Below are positions 9,082-56,501 of a stretch of 64,000 nucleotides of DNA, one piece after another (position 1 is the stretch's first letter; each line of letters begins with the position of its first letter). The stretch covers positions 992,001-1,056,000 of the forward strand of contig NC_014220.1 in NCBI RefSeq assembly GCF_000092405.1, read 5' to 3'. The notes beneath the pieces are model-generated. The model had not been told where the DNA came from, did not search any database, and worked only from the letters and a program-made list of their open reading frames with translations. Origin of the DNA: Syntrophothermus lipocalidus DSM 12680. Its GTDB lineage: Bacteria; Bacillota; Syntrophomonadia; Syntrophomonadales; Syntrophothermaceae. A program made the position numbers and the translations under genes.

Positions 9082-9846
9082 GTGCCGTTAGAGATTGACA
9101 AGTTTCTCTTGGTTTTTGCGCGTGTTTCGGGCTTGTTCTTGTCCGCACCTGTTTACTCCAGCCGGCAAATACCGGTTCAGATCAAAGTGTTTTTGGGGCT
9201 TTTACTGGCCGCGATAATAACTTATGTGAGGCCGATCTCGACCCGAGTAGAGCTCGATAACACCGGTATTTTTTTGGTCGCTTTGGCAGTAGAGGTATTC
9301 ACCGGTTATGCTTTAGGACTGGCAGGATATGTTTTGTTTGCGGCTGTTCAGCTTGCCGGACAGTTGGTAGATATGCAGATGGGTTTCGGTATTGTCAATG
9401 TGATGGATCCCCAATCCGGGATGCAAGTTCCCTTAGTGGGAAGTTTTTATTATCTGTTAGCTATTCTGGTGTTTTTGGGAATAGACGGGCATCATCAGCT
9501 TCTGTCAGCAGTTTATCACAGCTATGATGTTATCCCGATTTTGGGAGCCAAGTTTCAGCCGGGGTTTACCGCTTTTTTGGTTAAGCTGGGGGGATATATG
9601 TTCGTGCTAGGGGTGAAGATTGCCGCTCCAGTAGTAGCTGCCCTGTTAGTAGCGGATACGGCTCTGGGCTTTATGGCCCGAACGGTACCCCAGATGAACA
9701 TCTTTTTGGTGGGCATGCCTTTAAAGATACTGGGGGGAATTGTCATGTTGCTCTTGGTCATCCCAGTCTACGTGTGGTTGTTGCAGGTACTTTTTGCCCA
9801 GTTTTTTGACTGCCTGGATCAGGCCTTGTACTTTTTGGCCAGGTGA
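9082..9846 (+). CDS. fliR: Flagellar export gate protein FliR
   Basis: FliR closes the top of the export gate with FliP and FliQ. The 254-residue product is very hydrophobic with about six membrane segments. It contains the family patterns RVSGLFLSAPVYSSRQIPVQ near the N-terminus and AVQLAGQLVDMQMGFGIVNV in the centre. It ends in a helix-rich C-terminus (LLQVLFAQFFDCLDQALYFL). The start is GTG. flhB starts 7 bp after the stop, consistent with the FliR-FlhB contact; in some Clostridia the two are fused. Confidence 0.95.
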   Translation: MPLEIDKFLLVFARVSGLFLSAPVYSSRQIPVQIKVFLGLLLAAIITYVRPISTRVELDNTGIFLVALAVEVFTGYALGLAGYVLFAAVQLAGQLVDMQMGFGIVNVMDPQSGMQVPLVGSFYYLLAILVFLGIDGHHQLLSAVYHSYDVIPILGAKFQPGFTAFLVKLGGYMFVLGVKIAAPVVAALLVADTALGFMARTVPQMNIFLVGMPLKILGGIVMLLLVIPVYVWLLQVLFAQFFDCLDQALYFLAR

Positions 9847-9853
9847 TAAGCTG

Positions 9854-10954
9854 ATGGAAACAAGCGGTGTTTGGATACTAGATCTGCAGCTGTTTGCCGA
9901 AGGAGGCGAAAAAACCGAGAAAGCGACTCCGCGGCGGCGGCAAGAGAGTCGGAGAAAAGGCCAGGTTTTCCGGAGCGTGGACCTTAACTCTGCCGTCATA
10001 TTGCTTGTGGGATTCGCGGTGCTGCATTTTACAACCCCCTATATGTTAACCGGGATACAGGGATTTTTCAGCCGGTATTTATCAGATAGGGCTCTGACTC
10101 AATTGACTCCGGCTACGTTTCACGTAATGTTACTGGATGCCATCCTGCTAATGGCTAAGATATCCTTTCCTGTAATAGGAGCGGTCTTGGTGGCTGGATT
10201 ACTCGTCAATCTCTTGCAAGTAGGGTTTGTTTTTGCTGGGGAACCGTTATCTATAAAACCAGAACGCGTTAACCCGGTCGAGGGGTTTAAAAGGATATTT
10301 TCGCTGCGTGCCCTGATCGAGCTGGTCAAATCAGTGGCCAAAGTTGTCCTAACAGGTTGGGTGGTTTACTCGGTCTTGAAAAAGAACCTGTACCTTTTTC
10401 CCCGTTTTGTAGATATGGAGCCTGTAAGCATGGTGATGTCTTTAGGTAACATCATTTTCGAGATGGCTATGAAAATCGGGGTTGTTTTACTGGTGGTGGG
10501 TTTACTAGATTATTTGTACCAGTGGTGGGAGCACGAGAAATCGCTGCGGATGAGTAAGGAGGAACTGAAACAGGAATACAAACAAACGGAAGGCGACCCC
10601 CAGATAAGGAGCAAGCAGAGGCAAAAGCAGCGCGAAATGGCTATGCGCCGCATGATGGCCGAGGTACCCAAAGCCGATGTTGTAATAACCAACCCAACCC
10701 ATTTTGCTGTGGCCTTGAAATACGAAGCGGAAGCGATGACAGCTCCAGTGGTAACGGCTAAAGGGCAGGACTTTCTGGCTTTGCGCATAAGAGAAGTAGC
10801 TATGGAGCACCAAGTGGCCTTAGTAGAAAACCCATTTTTGGCTCGAACTATCTATTACTCAACCGAGATCGGAGATCCGATTCCAGAAACTCTTTATCAG
10901 GCCGTGGCCGAGGTACTCGCTTTCGTATACCGCCAGAAACGTAATCTCGGGTGA
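9854..10954 (+). CDS. flhB: Flagellar export switch protein FlhB
   Basis: FlhB wraps the export gate and switches secretion from hook to filament subunits after self-cleavage. The open frame extends back to 9740 inside fliR, but ATG 9854 gives the expected start: a hydrophobic lead-in, then LQLFAEGGEKTEKATPRRRQ. Four membrane helices follow. The cytoplasmic domain has the autocleavage motif N280-P-T-H283 (VITNPTHFAVAL). Length is 366 residues, normal. The flhB-flhA junction, usually tight, holds a repeat-filled gap of about 480 bp here. Confidence 0.96.
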   Translation: METSGVWILDLQLFAEGGEKTEKATPRRRQESRRKGQVFRSVDLNSAVILLVGFAVLHFTTPYMLTGIQGFFSRYLSDRALTQLTPATFHVMLLDAILLMAKISFPVIGAVLVAGLLVNLLQVGFVFAGEPLSIKPERVNPVEGFKRIFSLRALIELVKSVAKVVLTGWVVYSVLKKNLYLFPRFVDMEPVSMVMSLGNIIFEMAMKIGVVLLVVGLLDYLYQWWEHEKSLRMSKEELKQEYKQTEGDPQIRSKQRQKQREMAMRRMMAEVPKADVVITNPTHFAVALKYEAEAMTAPVVTAKGQDFLALRIREVAMEHQVALVENPFLARTIYYSTEIGDPIPETLYQAVAEVLAFVYRQKRNLG

Positions 10955-10964
10955 GGTTTTCTTA

Positions 10965-11399
10965 GCCACTGATGGGCACAGATGGACACGGATTGGCACA
11001 GATGTTTATTAGACGCTGACTTACGCAGACCTTTATGACTCTCATCCGAGTCACCACTAGAGAGTGAAAACTTCGGTTTCTTTAATGGTAACCTAGAAAA
11101 TCTTCAAATTAGGGAAAATCGGTGTTCATCTGCCCGGCAGTCAGCTGGCTAAAATTGTAACATGCTATTGGGTCTCGAAAACGCTAGCCGCTAATAGTTA
11201 AAGACTTGAGCTGAGTGCCGGGTCTGTGGGCATCTGCGGCTCGTTTTCGGGGCATATTGTTCAGAATAATTATGATCAATCTTGTGATTGAATGGCCCTT
11301 TTTTCACCCTGTAATAGTGACGCCTCCGGGTGTCAAGAGTGTCTATGTCCAGGCAGGTTCATCCGTGTTAATCAGTGAAAATCTGTGTTAATCTGTGGC
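10965..11399. repeat. Composite nested inverted-repeat region between flhB and flhA
   Basis: The 482-bp gap holds no credible gene. It is bounded by two inverted 40-bp arms, 10965-11004 and 11360-11399, matching at 29 of 40 positions. Each arm is a degenerate tandem of 10-bp units of the form nnCACnGATn. Inside lies a second inverted pair of 21-mers (11050-11070 on minus, 11301-11321 on plus; 17 of 21 match). Innermost is the 90-bp terminal-inverted-repeat element at 11133-11222. The same building blocks recur upstream of rseP and after dut. No transposase frame is present, so it would be non-autonomous if mobile. Confidence 0.75.
11133..11222 (-). repeat. TIR element copy A (90 bp)
   Basis: Read on the minus strand it begins CCCGGCACTCAGCTCAAGTC and ends GCTGACTGCCGGG, giving imperfect terminal inverted repeats of 13 bp. 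Its core is clearly alike to copy C (56137-56228): both share AAGTCTTT, an AGCGGCT block, a CCCAATnGCATGTTACAATT block and an AGCCA block. The two other copies are in the opposite orientation. Copies A, B and C are all intergenic. Confidence 0.85.
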
Positions 11400-11436
11400 C
11401 CGTTTTCTGACAAGGACATGGAGGAGGGTAGGGACA

Positions 11437-13482
11437 TTGTTAGGTAAGTTGCTCAATAACAGCGACATATTGCTATCGGTCGGGCTGATCATAATAGTTA
11501 TGATGATGATCATTCCTATGCCTTACTACCTCCTGGACATCTTTCTAACCTTCAATATCGCTTTTTCTCTTATCATCCTCATGGTGTGTATGTTCACTTT
11601 GCGTCCCTTGGACTTTTCGGTATTTCCTTCGATTTTGCTGATAATGACCTTATTCAGGCTTTCCCTCAACATTTCTTCGACTCGGCTGATACTTTTAGAT
11701 GCATTCGCCGGCAATGTCATCCAGCGGTTTGGGGACTTTGTGGTCCGCGGGGATATGGTAGTAGGTCTTGTGATATTTTTAATCTTGGTTGTTATCCAGT
11801 TCATCGTTATTACCAGAGGAGCTGAACGGGTGTCTGAAGTGGCGGCTAGATTCACGTTGGACGCCATGCCGGGCAAACAGATGGCTATAGATGCTGATTT
11901 AAACGCCGGATTGATAAATGAGAACGAGGCTAGGGAACGGAGAAAAGAGATTCAGAGGGAAGCCGACTTTTACGGGGCTATGGATGGAGCCAGCAAGTTT
12001 GTAAAAGGGGATGCGATTGCCGCTATCGTTATTCTGATGATAAACATCGTAGGTGGCTTGATTATTGGGATGGCACGGATGGGCATGTCTATCAACCAAG
12101 CGGCTAAGACCTACACAATCCTTACTGTGGGCGACGGCCTGGTGACCCAGATACCGGCTTTGCTTCTATCCACGGCTACCGGTATTGTGGTAACTAGAAG
12201 CGCTTCACAAGCTAACCTGGGCGAGGAGTTGACCAAGCAGTTGCTGGCACATTACAAAGCTCTGGGAATTGCGGCGGCAGTTCTGGTTGTTTTGGGATTT
12301 CTAGGCCTTCCTAAAGGGCCTATGTTTTTCATGGCCGCTGTGTTCGGTGCTCTCTTTTATACCCTGCGTAGGAGCACACCAGAGAACGTAGAACCGCAAA
12401 TACCGGCTGAAGCAGAAGAAGCGGCTAAAATAAGGAAGCCAGAAAACGTTGTGGAGCTGCTGCAGGTAGAGAAAATGGAGATGGAACTCGGCTATGCCTT
12501 GATACCGTTGGTTGACGCCGACCAGGGGGGAGATCTTCTCGACCGGATTGTCATGATTCGCAGGCAGTGCGCAACCGAACTCGGATTCATAGTACCCCCG
12601 ATCCGCATTCGAGATAACATGCAGCTGAAACCGAACGCTTACAGCATCAAGATCAAGGGAATGGAGATTGCCGCGGGAGAACTAATGTTAGACAGTTATT
12701 TGGTTTTAGGGCCAGGCATAGAAGAGGACAAAGACATCAAAGGGGTACTGACCACGGAGCCTGCATTCAATTTGCCTGCCAAATGGATAGATTCATCCGA
12801 ACGAGAAATAGCGGAGTTGAAAGGCTTTACCGTTGTAGACCCGCCTTCAGTTTTGGCAACTCACTTGACCCAGGTTATTAAGGAGCACGCGCATGAGCTC
12901 CTGGGACGGCAAGAGGTACAGAACATACTCAATTACATAAAAGAGCAAAACCCGGCAGTAGTAAACGAACTTATTCCGGATCTTCTGTCGTTGGGTGACG
13001 TACAGAAGGTGTTGAAGAACCTGTTACGGGAACAGGTGTCGATCCGGGATGTAGTTTCCATTCTTGAAGCCTTGGCTGACTATGCAAGGGTAACGCGAGA
13101 CACGGATGTTTTGACCGAATATGTTCGGCAGGCTTTGCGCAGGCATATTACAAAACAGTACGTGGATGACAAGGGCAAGTTAGTGGTTCTGACGATTGAG
13201 CCTGGTTTGGAGGAAAAACTGAGAGAATCAGTTCAGCAAAGCGAGTTTGGTTCTTATCTGGTGTTAGAACCGGATATGGCGCAGAAGCTGGTAAATGAGA
13301 TACGGAAGCACAGTGAACACTTGGCACGAAAGGGAAGCATACCTATGCTTCTTGTAGCACCGATCTTGCGTATCTATTTTAAGCGGTTCATCGAAAGGTT
13401 TGTTCCTAATCTGGTTCTGTTATCGTACAATGAAATCGAACCTGGGATTGAACTGGAAGTAGCAGGGATGGTGTCGGTATGA
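11437..13482 (+). CDS. flhA: Flagellar export apparatus protein FlhA
   Basis: FlhA is the main export-gate channel and substrate-docking platform. A GTG at 11395 is in frame, but it lies inside the repeat arm and has no ribosome site. TTG 11437 has GGAGGAGGG eight bases upstream and gives 681 residues. Eight membrane helices fill the N-terminal half. The FHIPEP signature region RFTLDAMPGKQMAIDADLNA falls at about residues 138-157. The C-terminal half is the soluble chaperone/substrate-docking domain (HLTQVIKEHAHELLGRQEVQ, LLREQVSIRDVVSILEAL). The stop overlaps flhF by 4 bp. Confidence 0.96.
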   Translation: MLGKLLNNSDILLSVGLIIIVMMMIIPMPYYLLDIFLTFNIAFSLIILMVCMFTLRPLDFSVFPSILLIMTLFRLSLNISSTRLILLDAFAGNVIQRFGDFVVRGDMVVGLVIFLILVVIQFIVITRGAERVSEVAARFTLDAMPGKQMAIDADLNAGLINENEARERRKEIQREADFYGAMDGASKFVKGDAIAAIVILMINIVGGLIIGMARMGMSINQAAKTYTILTVGDGLVTQIPALLLSTATGIVVTRSASQANLGEELTKQLLAHYKALGIAAAVLVVLGFLGLPKGPMFFMAAVFGALFYTLRRSTPENVEPQIPAEAEEAAKIRKPENVVELLQVEKMEMELGYALIPLVDADQGGDLLDRIVMIRRQCATELGFIVPPIRIRDNMQLKPNAYSIKIKGMEIAAGELMLDSYLVLGPGIEEDKDIKGVLTTEPAFNLPAKWIDSSEREIAELKGFTVVDPPSVLATHLTQVIKEHAHELLGRQEVQNILNYIKEQNPAVVNELIPDLLSLGDVQKVLKNLLREQVSIRDVVSILEALADYARVTRDTDVLTEYVRQALRRHITKQYVDDKGKLVVLTIEPGLEEKLRESVQQSEFGSYLVLEPDMAQKLVNEIRKHSEHLARKGSIPMLLVAPILRIYFKRFIERFVPNLVLLSYNEIEPGIELEVAGMVSV

Positions 13483-30917: not shown

Positions 30918-31277
30918 GCCACTGATAGACACAGACCCGGCACTCAGCTCAAGTTCTAAATTCTTAGTAAATGCCCTTTTGCATGCGAAACAGCACGGTG
31001 CTGCAAACTCAGCTAACTGAGTGCCGGGCAGATGAACGCAGATTTACACTGATTATAAATAAAAAATATTGATTCCACTGTAAAAACCAATTTTTGGTTC
31101 GATTATCCGCTATATTTAGTAGTGGTTTTCTGTCTCACCACTATATGTTGACTTCTTCTAGGGACAGACAGGGGTTTTTGCGTGAGAATCAAATATTATA
31201 AAAGGTTATGGTCCTTTGGCCCTACGGTATGCCAATTTTCATTCTCTAGTAGTGACACTACTGGGTGTCAGGAGGGT
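30917..31277. repeat. Repeat-containing intergenic region between dxr and rseP
   Basis: This 410-bp gap has no credible gene. It starts with a GCCACTGAT unit next to the dxr stop, followed by TIR element copy B. Next is an AT-rich stretch with an inverted pair (TAGTGGT / ACCACTA near 31120-31142). It ends with a 21-mer (31236-31256) that matches 19 of 21 bases of a motif in the flhB-flhA gap, and a hairpin TGACAC-N6-GTGTCA (31253-31270) about 58 bases before rseP. Confidence 0.7.
30936..31028 (+). repeat. TIR element copy B (93 bp)
   Basis: The element opens with CCCGGCACTCAGCTCAAGT and closes with AACTGAGTGCCGGG. The ends pair as CCCGGCACTCAG/CTGAGTGCCGGG plus two more bases. The core differs from copies A and C in its first half but shares the TGCTGCAAACTCAGC-like block at its right end. 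Flanks are GACACAGA (left) and CAGATGAACGCAGATTTACA (right), matching copy A. Confidence 0.85.
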
Positions 31278-56103: not shown

Positions 56104-56501
56104 CTTTTTCAAAAACGGGCCACAGATGCACACAAACCCGGCACTCAGCTCAAGTCTTTGATTACAAGCGGCTGGCTTTTTCGGAGCCCAATGGCATGTT
56201 ACAATTTCAGCCAACTGAGTGCCGGGCCGATACACACGGATTGACTTTATAACTCAGAATTGTTCATTATTCCTGTCAGGCGTTATGAGGGCAGGTCTCA
56301 AAAAAATGGGAAAAACGGGGACTGATTTCTGATAATGTGACCGAGTGTTCTTTTTCTAAAGAACATTTCCGGGGATAACAAGAGTAGGTTCAAATTTGGC
56401 GAAAAACTTTGGGGATAAATCTTGAAGCCGGCGACTATTAATTTATTAGAAAGACAAGTTAGGCGGAGGAAAGGCCGGGGTAAGTCACGGGGGGAGCAAG
56501 T
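56104..56501. other. Repeat-containing gap between dut and the YlmC/YmxH-type gene
   Basis: No gene is seen in these 398 bp. The first part has the AAAACGGGCCACAGAT block shared with the flhB-flhA gap, then TIR copy C (56137-56228) and a GATACACACGGATTGA tail. From about 56270 on the sequence is AT-rich without clear repeats, promoter or terminator, apart from the ribosome site CGGGGGGAGC before the next gene. Confidence 0.6.
56137..56228 (+). repeat. TIR element copy C (92 bp)
   Basis: It opens CCCGGCACTCAGCTCAAGTC and closes CCAACTGAGTGCCGGG. The core matches the reverse complement of copy A over most of its length (AGCGGCT, GCCCAATGGCATGTTACAAT). Same left flank type (CACAGATGCACACAAA) as the other two. 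Confidence 0.87.

Follow-up and report, generated by a model that had tools for sequence, protein, structure and literature searches.

Bacterial ribosomal RNA (rRNA) can carry short hairpin inserts, termed intervening sequences or expansion segments, which sit in tolerant stem-loops and vary between operons, according to the available portions of two reports (PMC2672173, PMC7812874), the first of which also describes their removal by RNase III in other bacteria. In bacteria of the candidate phyla radiation (CPR), the accessible part of one study reports sparse GIY-YIG genes within rRNA insertions other than group I or II introns, located in less conserved stem-loops, and judges these insertions to be outside spread by homing (PMC11270868). 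The insertion sequence IS1272 is described, in the sections available, as targeting and replacing inverted repeats, leaving no target duplication (PMC5678879). Here we analyse the spacer between the flagellar genes flhB and flhA of Syntrophothermus lipocalidus DSM 12680, whose genome is a single contig of 2,405,559 bp. The spacer lies in a stretch of 64,000 nucleotides (NC_014220.1, positions 992,001 to 1,056,000 of the forward strand), referred to as the window, and positions are counted from its first letter unless the genome is named. At the centre of the spacer is a 90-bp element with terminal inverted repeats (TIR), at 11133 to 11222. We consider it probable, as one joint reading, that the spacer is a nest of dispersed repeats inserted into one another, and that its central element is a non-autonomous member of a family of mobile hairpins which spread by means of their own GIY-YIG nuclease and are grafted onto hairpins without target duplication.

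Results

The central element (CCCGGCAGTCA...TGAGTGCCGGG, no strand assigned) is a non-coding member of a hairpin family linked to a GIY-YIG gene. The TIR element proper spans 11134 to 11221, a closing C/G completing the 90 bp; its ends align with a score of 12 against a shuffled maximum of 11, and the left end carries one changed base, GTCA for CTCA. Alignment of the matches gave the family ends as Y-CCGGCACTCA ... TGAGTGCCGG-R, that is, fixed 11-bp inverted ends enclosing wholly different interiors. Exact end pairs 80-110 bp long were found 46 times in the S. lipocalidus genome and in 12 of 101 genomes, and the reversed pattern used as a control gave none in all 101. In genome contigs of other organisms, at least 119 stretches had exact end pairs, against about 7 expected by arithmetic with uniform bases, and the phyla concerned were Bacillota, Desulfobacterota, Synergistota and Atribacterota. 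A phage origin was rejected, with no exact end pair in viral contigs, and matches in records of, for example, Pseudomonas, Kribbella and Demequina are probably due to chance. Interiors from different sites resembled each other more when both came from one genome (22 pairs) than when they came from two (1072 pairs; p 7e-5).

Functional RNAs host at least 53 of 171 distinct elements from S. lipocalidus and other genomes: 28 are in ribonuclease P (RNase P) RNA, in three different helices, 9 in 16S rRNA, 8 in 23S rRNA, 7 in cobalamin riboswitches and 1 in a cyclic di-GMP (c-di-GMP-I) riboswitch. Flank matching assigned the RNase P, 16S and 23S cases and 5 of the cobalamin ones, and Rfam added 3 of the other 121 (two cobalamin, one c-di-GMP-I); 53 of 171 is a lower bound, the flanks having been matched to six references and Rfam having covered part of the loci. 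In S. lipocalidus itself, elements interrupt the RNase P RNA (RF00010, 318 bits) and a cobalamin riboswitch (RF00174, 92 bits), and inserts with the family ends occur in 16S rRNA at E. coli positions ~70 and ~1450 and in 23S rRNA at ~547, ~1865 and ~2790. Between the two 23S genes there are 76 differing columns; two elements account for 65 of them, with hardly any change at their ends, and at ~2790 the inserts of the two genes have identical ends and unrelated interiors (51 of 98 columns equal, ends included). All seven RNA-located copies that were tested fold into long hairpins, with z between -5 and -9, against z -2.8 (-32.2 kcal/mol) for the spacer copy as an RNA hairpin.

RNase P RNA was parsed for 68 genomes (70 fetched, match in 97 of 101 genomes, the sample being deliberately enriched for long RNAs). 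Exact ends were present in 6 of them in the helix that we take to be P12. Paired changes in this helix, as an RNA stem predicts, were found in G064, G075, G014 and G007, for example CCGGCACTTA/TAAGTGCCGG and CCGGCAATCA/TGATTGCCGG; in G001, G013, G019 and G072 the pairing was only partial. A second type of P12 insert, with GGAGGTC or GGAAGTC units, was noticed in several Syntrophomonadales (L231, L236, L237, L239, L246, L253, L255), and sequence of this type also occurs in the S. lipocalidus 23S gene near ~1163-1185. At that place (L031 4862-5230, E. coli ~1163-1185) the gene has a further insert of ~450 nt with a 122-aa frame, which by eye we take to resemble the S23/four-helix-bundle protein of classical helix-45 intervening sequences.

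Splicing of elements out of protein genes was also considered and rejected. Flanks of 300 bp on either side were available for 102 elements, of which 20 lay in stop-free stretches of at least 200 codons and 10 gained such a stretch only after removal; many of the 20 belonged to rRNA or RNase P RNA or came from GC-rich genomes. No protein spanned the junction in the seven loci read, and proteins named by eye as seryl-tRNA synthetase-like and VWA-like start downstream of the element junction.

The ends could alternatively be an RNA-processing signal: an RNase or a splicing activity would remove the elements, and selection would keep the 11-bp stem while the interior drifts. The ends kept during change in place (65 of 76 differing 23S columns), the paired changes in P12 stems, the long hairpins of all seven tested copies and the RNase III activity on rRNA intervening sequences reported in the available text of PMC2672173 are all in agreement with this idea. 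Lower stems would, however, drift less than loops even without processing, and the same ends also occur in riboswitch leaders and palindromic repeats, where a cut that is not followed by ligation would break the mRNA in two. It also leaves the GIY-YIG versions described below unexplained. We regard RNA processing as unlikely to account for the family, although it is compatible with mobile hairpins and the two explanations are not mutually exclusive.

Insertion sites were compared in 108 distinct contexts. The flanking bases were C..G in 66, T..A in 33 and other in 9, never G..C or A..T, and the adjoining flank pair was complementary in 99. No target duplication above shuffles was detected in 107 distinct contexts, the largest excess being 6 at 3 bp, against a mean of 2.1 and a maximum of 6. 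In genomes other than S. lipocalidus, flanks paired beyond the adjoining pair (-10.9 against -8.7 for swapped flanks, sd 0.41). As read from these contexts, the insertion pattern is a pyrimidine|purine (Y|R) rule without target duplication and with an apparent preference for hairpin-rich RNAs and repeats. Outside functional RNAs, 25 of the 34 S. lipocalidus copies sat on arrays of the 10-bp CACnGAT units described below and 8 inside another palindromic repeat, the remaining one (L013) having array units on one side and palindromic repeat on the other. A palindromic repeat of ~250 bp (GGAGGAGTGTTAGCC...GGCTAACACTCCTC) carrying short copies of the element was seen at six loci (L020, L025, L024, L030, L055, L064).

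In four genomes, the same ends enclose 300-307 bp with a GIY-YIG frame of 82-87 aa that has its own ribosome-binding site. The S. lipocalidus nuclease version, in 23S rRNA at ~1865 (301 bp, 82-aa frame), is identical in both rRNA operons and is the sole case, in 1.3 Mb of examined loci, of unpaired ends 126-4000 bp apart. Its protein is a GIY-YIG nuclease (PF01541, E 7.9e-14; PDB 1zg2, E 2.1e-8; UPF0213 structures). When 398 genomes of the phylum were scanned with a pattern, one other was positive, G179, with four nuclease copies (306-307 bp, one of them frameshifted), and a scan of 43 element-bearing genomes gave two more nuclease versions in G449 and G455 (Desulfobacteraceae); five other long-spacing matches in the latter scan were each two adjacent short elements. 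All nuclease versions are in 23S rRNA, three genomes having them at ~1865 and one at ~2790. The four element proteins share 51-61% mutual identity, group in a single clade (support 1.000) when placed with 28 chromosomal homologues, and have a C-terminal stretch, RRWLxERI, that is invariant or nearly so in all four. Their genes differ chiefly in the third position of codons (~50-57, second position 18-24). A predicted model of the element protein (mean predicted local distance difference test, pLDDT, 80; predicted template-modelling score, pTM, 0.67) matched UPF0213 first and then five Slx1 chains, with E below 0.001 for the first match only. Chromosomal GIY-YIG genes were rejected as movers, since among 30 loci from the search of relatives the family ends were present only at the S. 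lipocalidus 23S locus.

Two short elements look like internal-deletion derivatives of nuclease versions. G014, which belongs to another genus, has an element of 71 nt at the 23S site of the S. lipocalidus nuclease version; the gene is gone, but the beginning of that version is kept together with the ribosome-binding site, and the element is homologous to the 5' part of the S. lipocalidus GIY-YIG element (score 13, shuffled maximum 6.5 in 2000 shuffles). In G179, an element of 92-97 nt at another 23S site matches the GIY-YIG element of that genome at both ends (score 13, maximum 10.5). The common versions of 60-110 bp, which keep the ends, also look like internal-deletion derivatives.

Judged from the sequences, the family is characterized by common ends, C..G or T..A flanks, no target duplication, structured-RNA hosts, nuclease forms and two apparent deletion derivatives. 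We propose that the GIY-YIG nuclease, with a fold nearest to UPF0213 and to the branched-DNA nuclease Slx1, would cut the Y|R step in an extruded hairpin, that repair would then leave the element at the cut hairpin, and that short copies would move in trans. In RNA, the element would fold into its own stem, so that the host RNA would gain a side branch and not a misfold; folding as a separate side stem may explain why copies survive in rRNA, RNase P RNA and riboswitches. The flhB-flhA copy would be transcribed as a mostly harmless side hairpin.

If the ends were instead terminal inverted repeats for a DDE or other usual transposase acting in trans, the elements would be ordinary miniature inverted-repeat transposable elements (MITEs), and their short size, inverted ends, many copies and similarity within a genome fit that description. 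It is nevertheless improbable: target duplications did not exceed those of shuffles, a Y1 transposase, the one transposase family covered by the scan, was rejected as the mover with no PF01797 match in the S. lipocalidus genome, and the sole unpaired ends 126-4000 bp apart in the 1.3 Mb examined flank a GIY-YIG gene.

Within the spacer, the initial annotation had described three nested inverted-repeat layers with a TIR element at the centre, and this architecture was recovered. From outside to inside, we find arms of CACnGAT units, a second inverted pair, a further array arm, and the central TIR element, which splits that array arm. The left outer arm (10965 to 11029, plus strand) comprises four 10-bp CACnGAT units (10967-11003) and then CGCnGA units (11014, 11024), which extend it to 11029 and had been overlooked; the right outer arm (11361 to 11400, minus strand) has four units, inverted. 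The 40-bp outer arms of 10-bp units, as previously claimed, do align (10965-11004 with 11361-11400, score 18 against a maximum of 11 in 500 shuffles), with ~29 of 40 positions complementary and the nnn positions mostly non-complementary. The second layer has a left end at 11027 to 11070 (plus strand, CAGACCTTTATGACTC...) and a degenerate right end at 11301 to 11344 (minus strand). Its score of 14 against a shuffled maximum of 13 (500 shuffles) is barely over chance at the locus, and we accept the pair because copies elsewhere in the genome support it, 11023-11070 recurring alone at many places. It could not be matched with certainty to the 21-bp inner pair of the initial annotation.

The inner array arm is in two pieces on the minus strand: the left one (11118 to 11132) ends with TCTG (11129-11132), just where the central element is inserted, and the right one (11223 to 11240) begins with TCTG (11223-11226), this flanking pair being a property of the array units. 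The boundary of the central element is sharp, because another locus (L003, genome 1111321-1111492, minus strand) is 82% identical to 10960-11132 and then continues without the element. The best reading of the flhB-flhA copy would be a decayed, non-autonomous element, tolerated as a side hairpin. The spacer layers recur across the genome beside unrelated genes, with 56 partial matches, and the unit pair CACnGATnnnCACnGAT, with at most one mismatch allowed, was counted 327 times (reversed control, 29). Two other copies of the central element are in the window, at 30937 to 31027 (L019) and 56138 to 56225 (L006), both on array units and with no strand assigned. In other Syntrophomonadales, the array units are patchy (6 of 101 genomes). 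Three-unit CACnGAT matches numbered ~90 each in G000 and G027, 27 in G061, 7 in G062 and 1 each in G023 and G036, with 0 in 95 other relatives.

The flhB gene ends at 10954 (TIGR00328 profile) and the most probable start of flhA is TTG 11437, preceded by GGAGGAGGG (TIGR01398 profile and alignment with relatives), with a likely ribosome-binding site at 11420 to 11428 (plus strand). The spacer from the flhB stop to this TTG is 482 bp, the length first reported, and the GTG once predicted for flhA (11395) indeed lies within the right outer arm, where it opens the longest flhA frame without being the probable start codon. The initial annotation was right that the region must be transcribed unless it holds a promoter. 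A sigma-70-like promoter was looked for in 10900-11500 and not found; the same interval has one weak terminator-like site (6 pairs, 11224-11239; shuffles expect 0.4), and an Rfam search of 9500-13000 gave no match.

Forty relatives were searched besides S. lipocalidus, and in 29 of them a locus had flhB and flhA both in reach. Their spacers measure 28-327 bp, mostly 28-64 bp, and are shorter and without the repeat stack in 29 of 29, so that the insertion is absent from related operons, as had been anticipated. None of the five longer spacers that were inspected (L296, L297, L300, L304, L306; 100-327 bp) has the stack. Four of these (L296, L300, L304, L306) contain unrelated palindromic repeats of their own, and the junction seems repeatedly repeat-tolerant. 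Two other suggestions of the initial annotation are not supported: that the structure is particular to the flagellar operon, every layer recurring elsewhere in the genome, and that a long mRNA hairpin acts on flhA, the layers lying beside unrelated genes and relatives lacking them, although some influence on the mRNA may exist. That the stack regulates flhA, such a hairpin tuning the second half of the operon, is very unlikely: transcription must cross the spacer, and 10955-11410 folds better than its shuffles (-150.7 against -128.2 kcal/mol, sd 6.9, z -3.25), but the layers recur throughout the genome, no promoter-like site and a single weak terminator-like site accompany them here, and nothing ties the weak motility of S. 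lipocalidus reported in the available part of PMC3035303 to the spacer. For the flagellar operon, the outcome is an ordinary one, a spacer filled with repeats.

Discussion

Several points weigh against a family of mobile hairpins spread by its own nuclease. No movement was observed; movement of the element, and any RNA excision, are what we infer. The spacer copy, with one end base altered, may be inert. Hairpin-tip targeting is not evident in the S. lipocalidus genome, because past the adjoining pair the flanks there pair no better than swapped ones (-9.35 against -9.38). Nuclease versions were seen only at two sites of 23S rRNA in 4 genomes (scans of 398 and 43), and the 30 GIY-YIG loci of relatives had the ends at the S. 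lipocalidus locus only. An Armatimonadetes contig, L356 (G449), may be mis-binned, since its 23S flanks are 93.6% identical to those of S. lipocalidus over 265 nt. Some ~30 array-located S. lipocalidus copies share no interior with the GIY-YIG element of that genome, and control of short copies in trans would be suggested by the shared ends only. Finally, the similarity of interiors within a genome is driven by 4 of the 22 pairs, one of them formed by the P12 and P19-like inserts within a single RNase P RNA (L140).

Taken more broadly, the family might represent a new superfamily of transposable elements, with a structure-specific GIY-YIG nuclease of 82-87 aa as sole enzyme, in which 300-bp autonomous hairpins and derivatives of 60-110 bp graft onto hairpins and so live as parasites of rRNA, RNase P RNA and riboswitches in different bacterial phyla; we would put the chances of this wider proposal at about even. 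If it is true, few autonomous mobile elements would be smaller, and one mechanism would account both for the scattered expansion segments of rRNA and for the rRNA insertions with GIY-YIG genes. Bacterial rRNA inserts, odd RNase P RNA helices and long riboswitch loops have so far been treated as separate curiosities, and one pair of 11-bp ends connects such inserts with a nuclease gene that could move them. Essential structured RNAs would then share one molecular parasite landing on hairpin loops, and variable helices used for RNA phylogeny and structure prediction could be mobile DNA. With so small a protein, and a short hairpin as substrate, the model can be tested directly. A search of the open-licence literature, which is weak evidence of absence, returned no prior description linking these ends or these host RNAs, and no description of a repeat or RNA insert was among the matches listed for the array unit strings and the end sequence.

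The family shares features with several known systems. Like rRNA intervening sequences, the 16S and 23S copies sit in variable helices and fold on themselves, but most family copies are outside rRNA, and the available text of the accounts of intervening sequences describes no common ends and no RNase P or riboswitch copies (PMC2672173, PMC7812874). The CPR insertions also have a GIY-YIG gene within an rRNA insertion, as far as the accessible part of the study goes (PMC11270868). Homing endonuclease elements, such as group I introns with GIY-YIG genes, likewise combine a small nuclease gene in an rRNA insertion with derivatives lacking the open reading frame; their long recognition site differs from the insertion sites here, which share Y|R only. 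No group I or II intron overlapped an element in the Rfam searches of elements, the one group II match (L116 481-546) being away from the element. IS1272 resembles the family in leaving no target duplication, may resemble it in inserting at inverted repeats, and is a precedent for inverted-repeat replacement, but it is, in the sections available, a full insertion sequence with a transposase (PMC5678879), whereas the nuclease version here is about 300 bp long and carries a GIY-YIG gene. MITEs and repetitive extragenic palindromes (REP/REPIN) are similarly short, non-coding, palindromic and present in many copies with inverted ends, with a movement in trans that we would also expect here; the family differs from them in its unconserved interiors, its functional-RNA hosts and the lack of a Y1 (RAYT-type) transposase in the S. 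lipocalidus genome. With UPF0213 and Slx1 proteins, the element proteins have in common the GIY-YIG fold and catalytic motif, and they are set apart as a separate clade with the C-terminal RRWLxERI.
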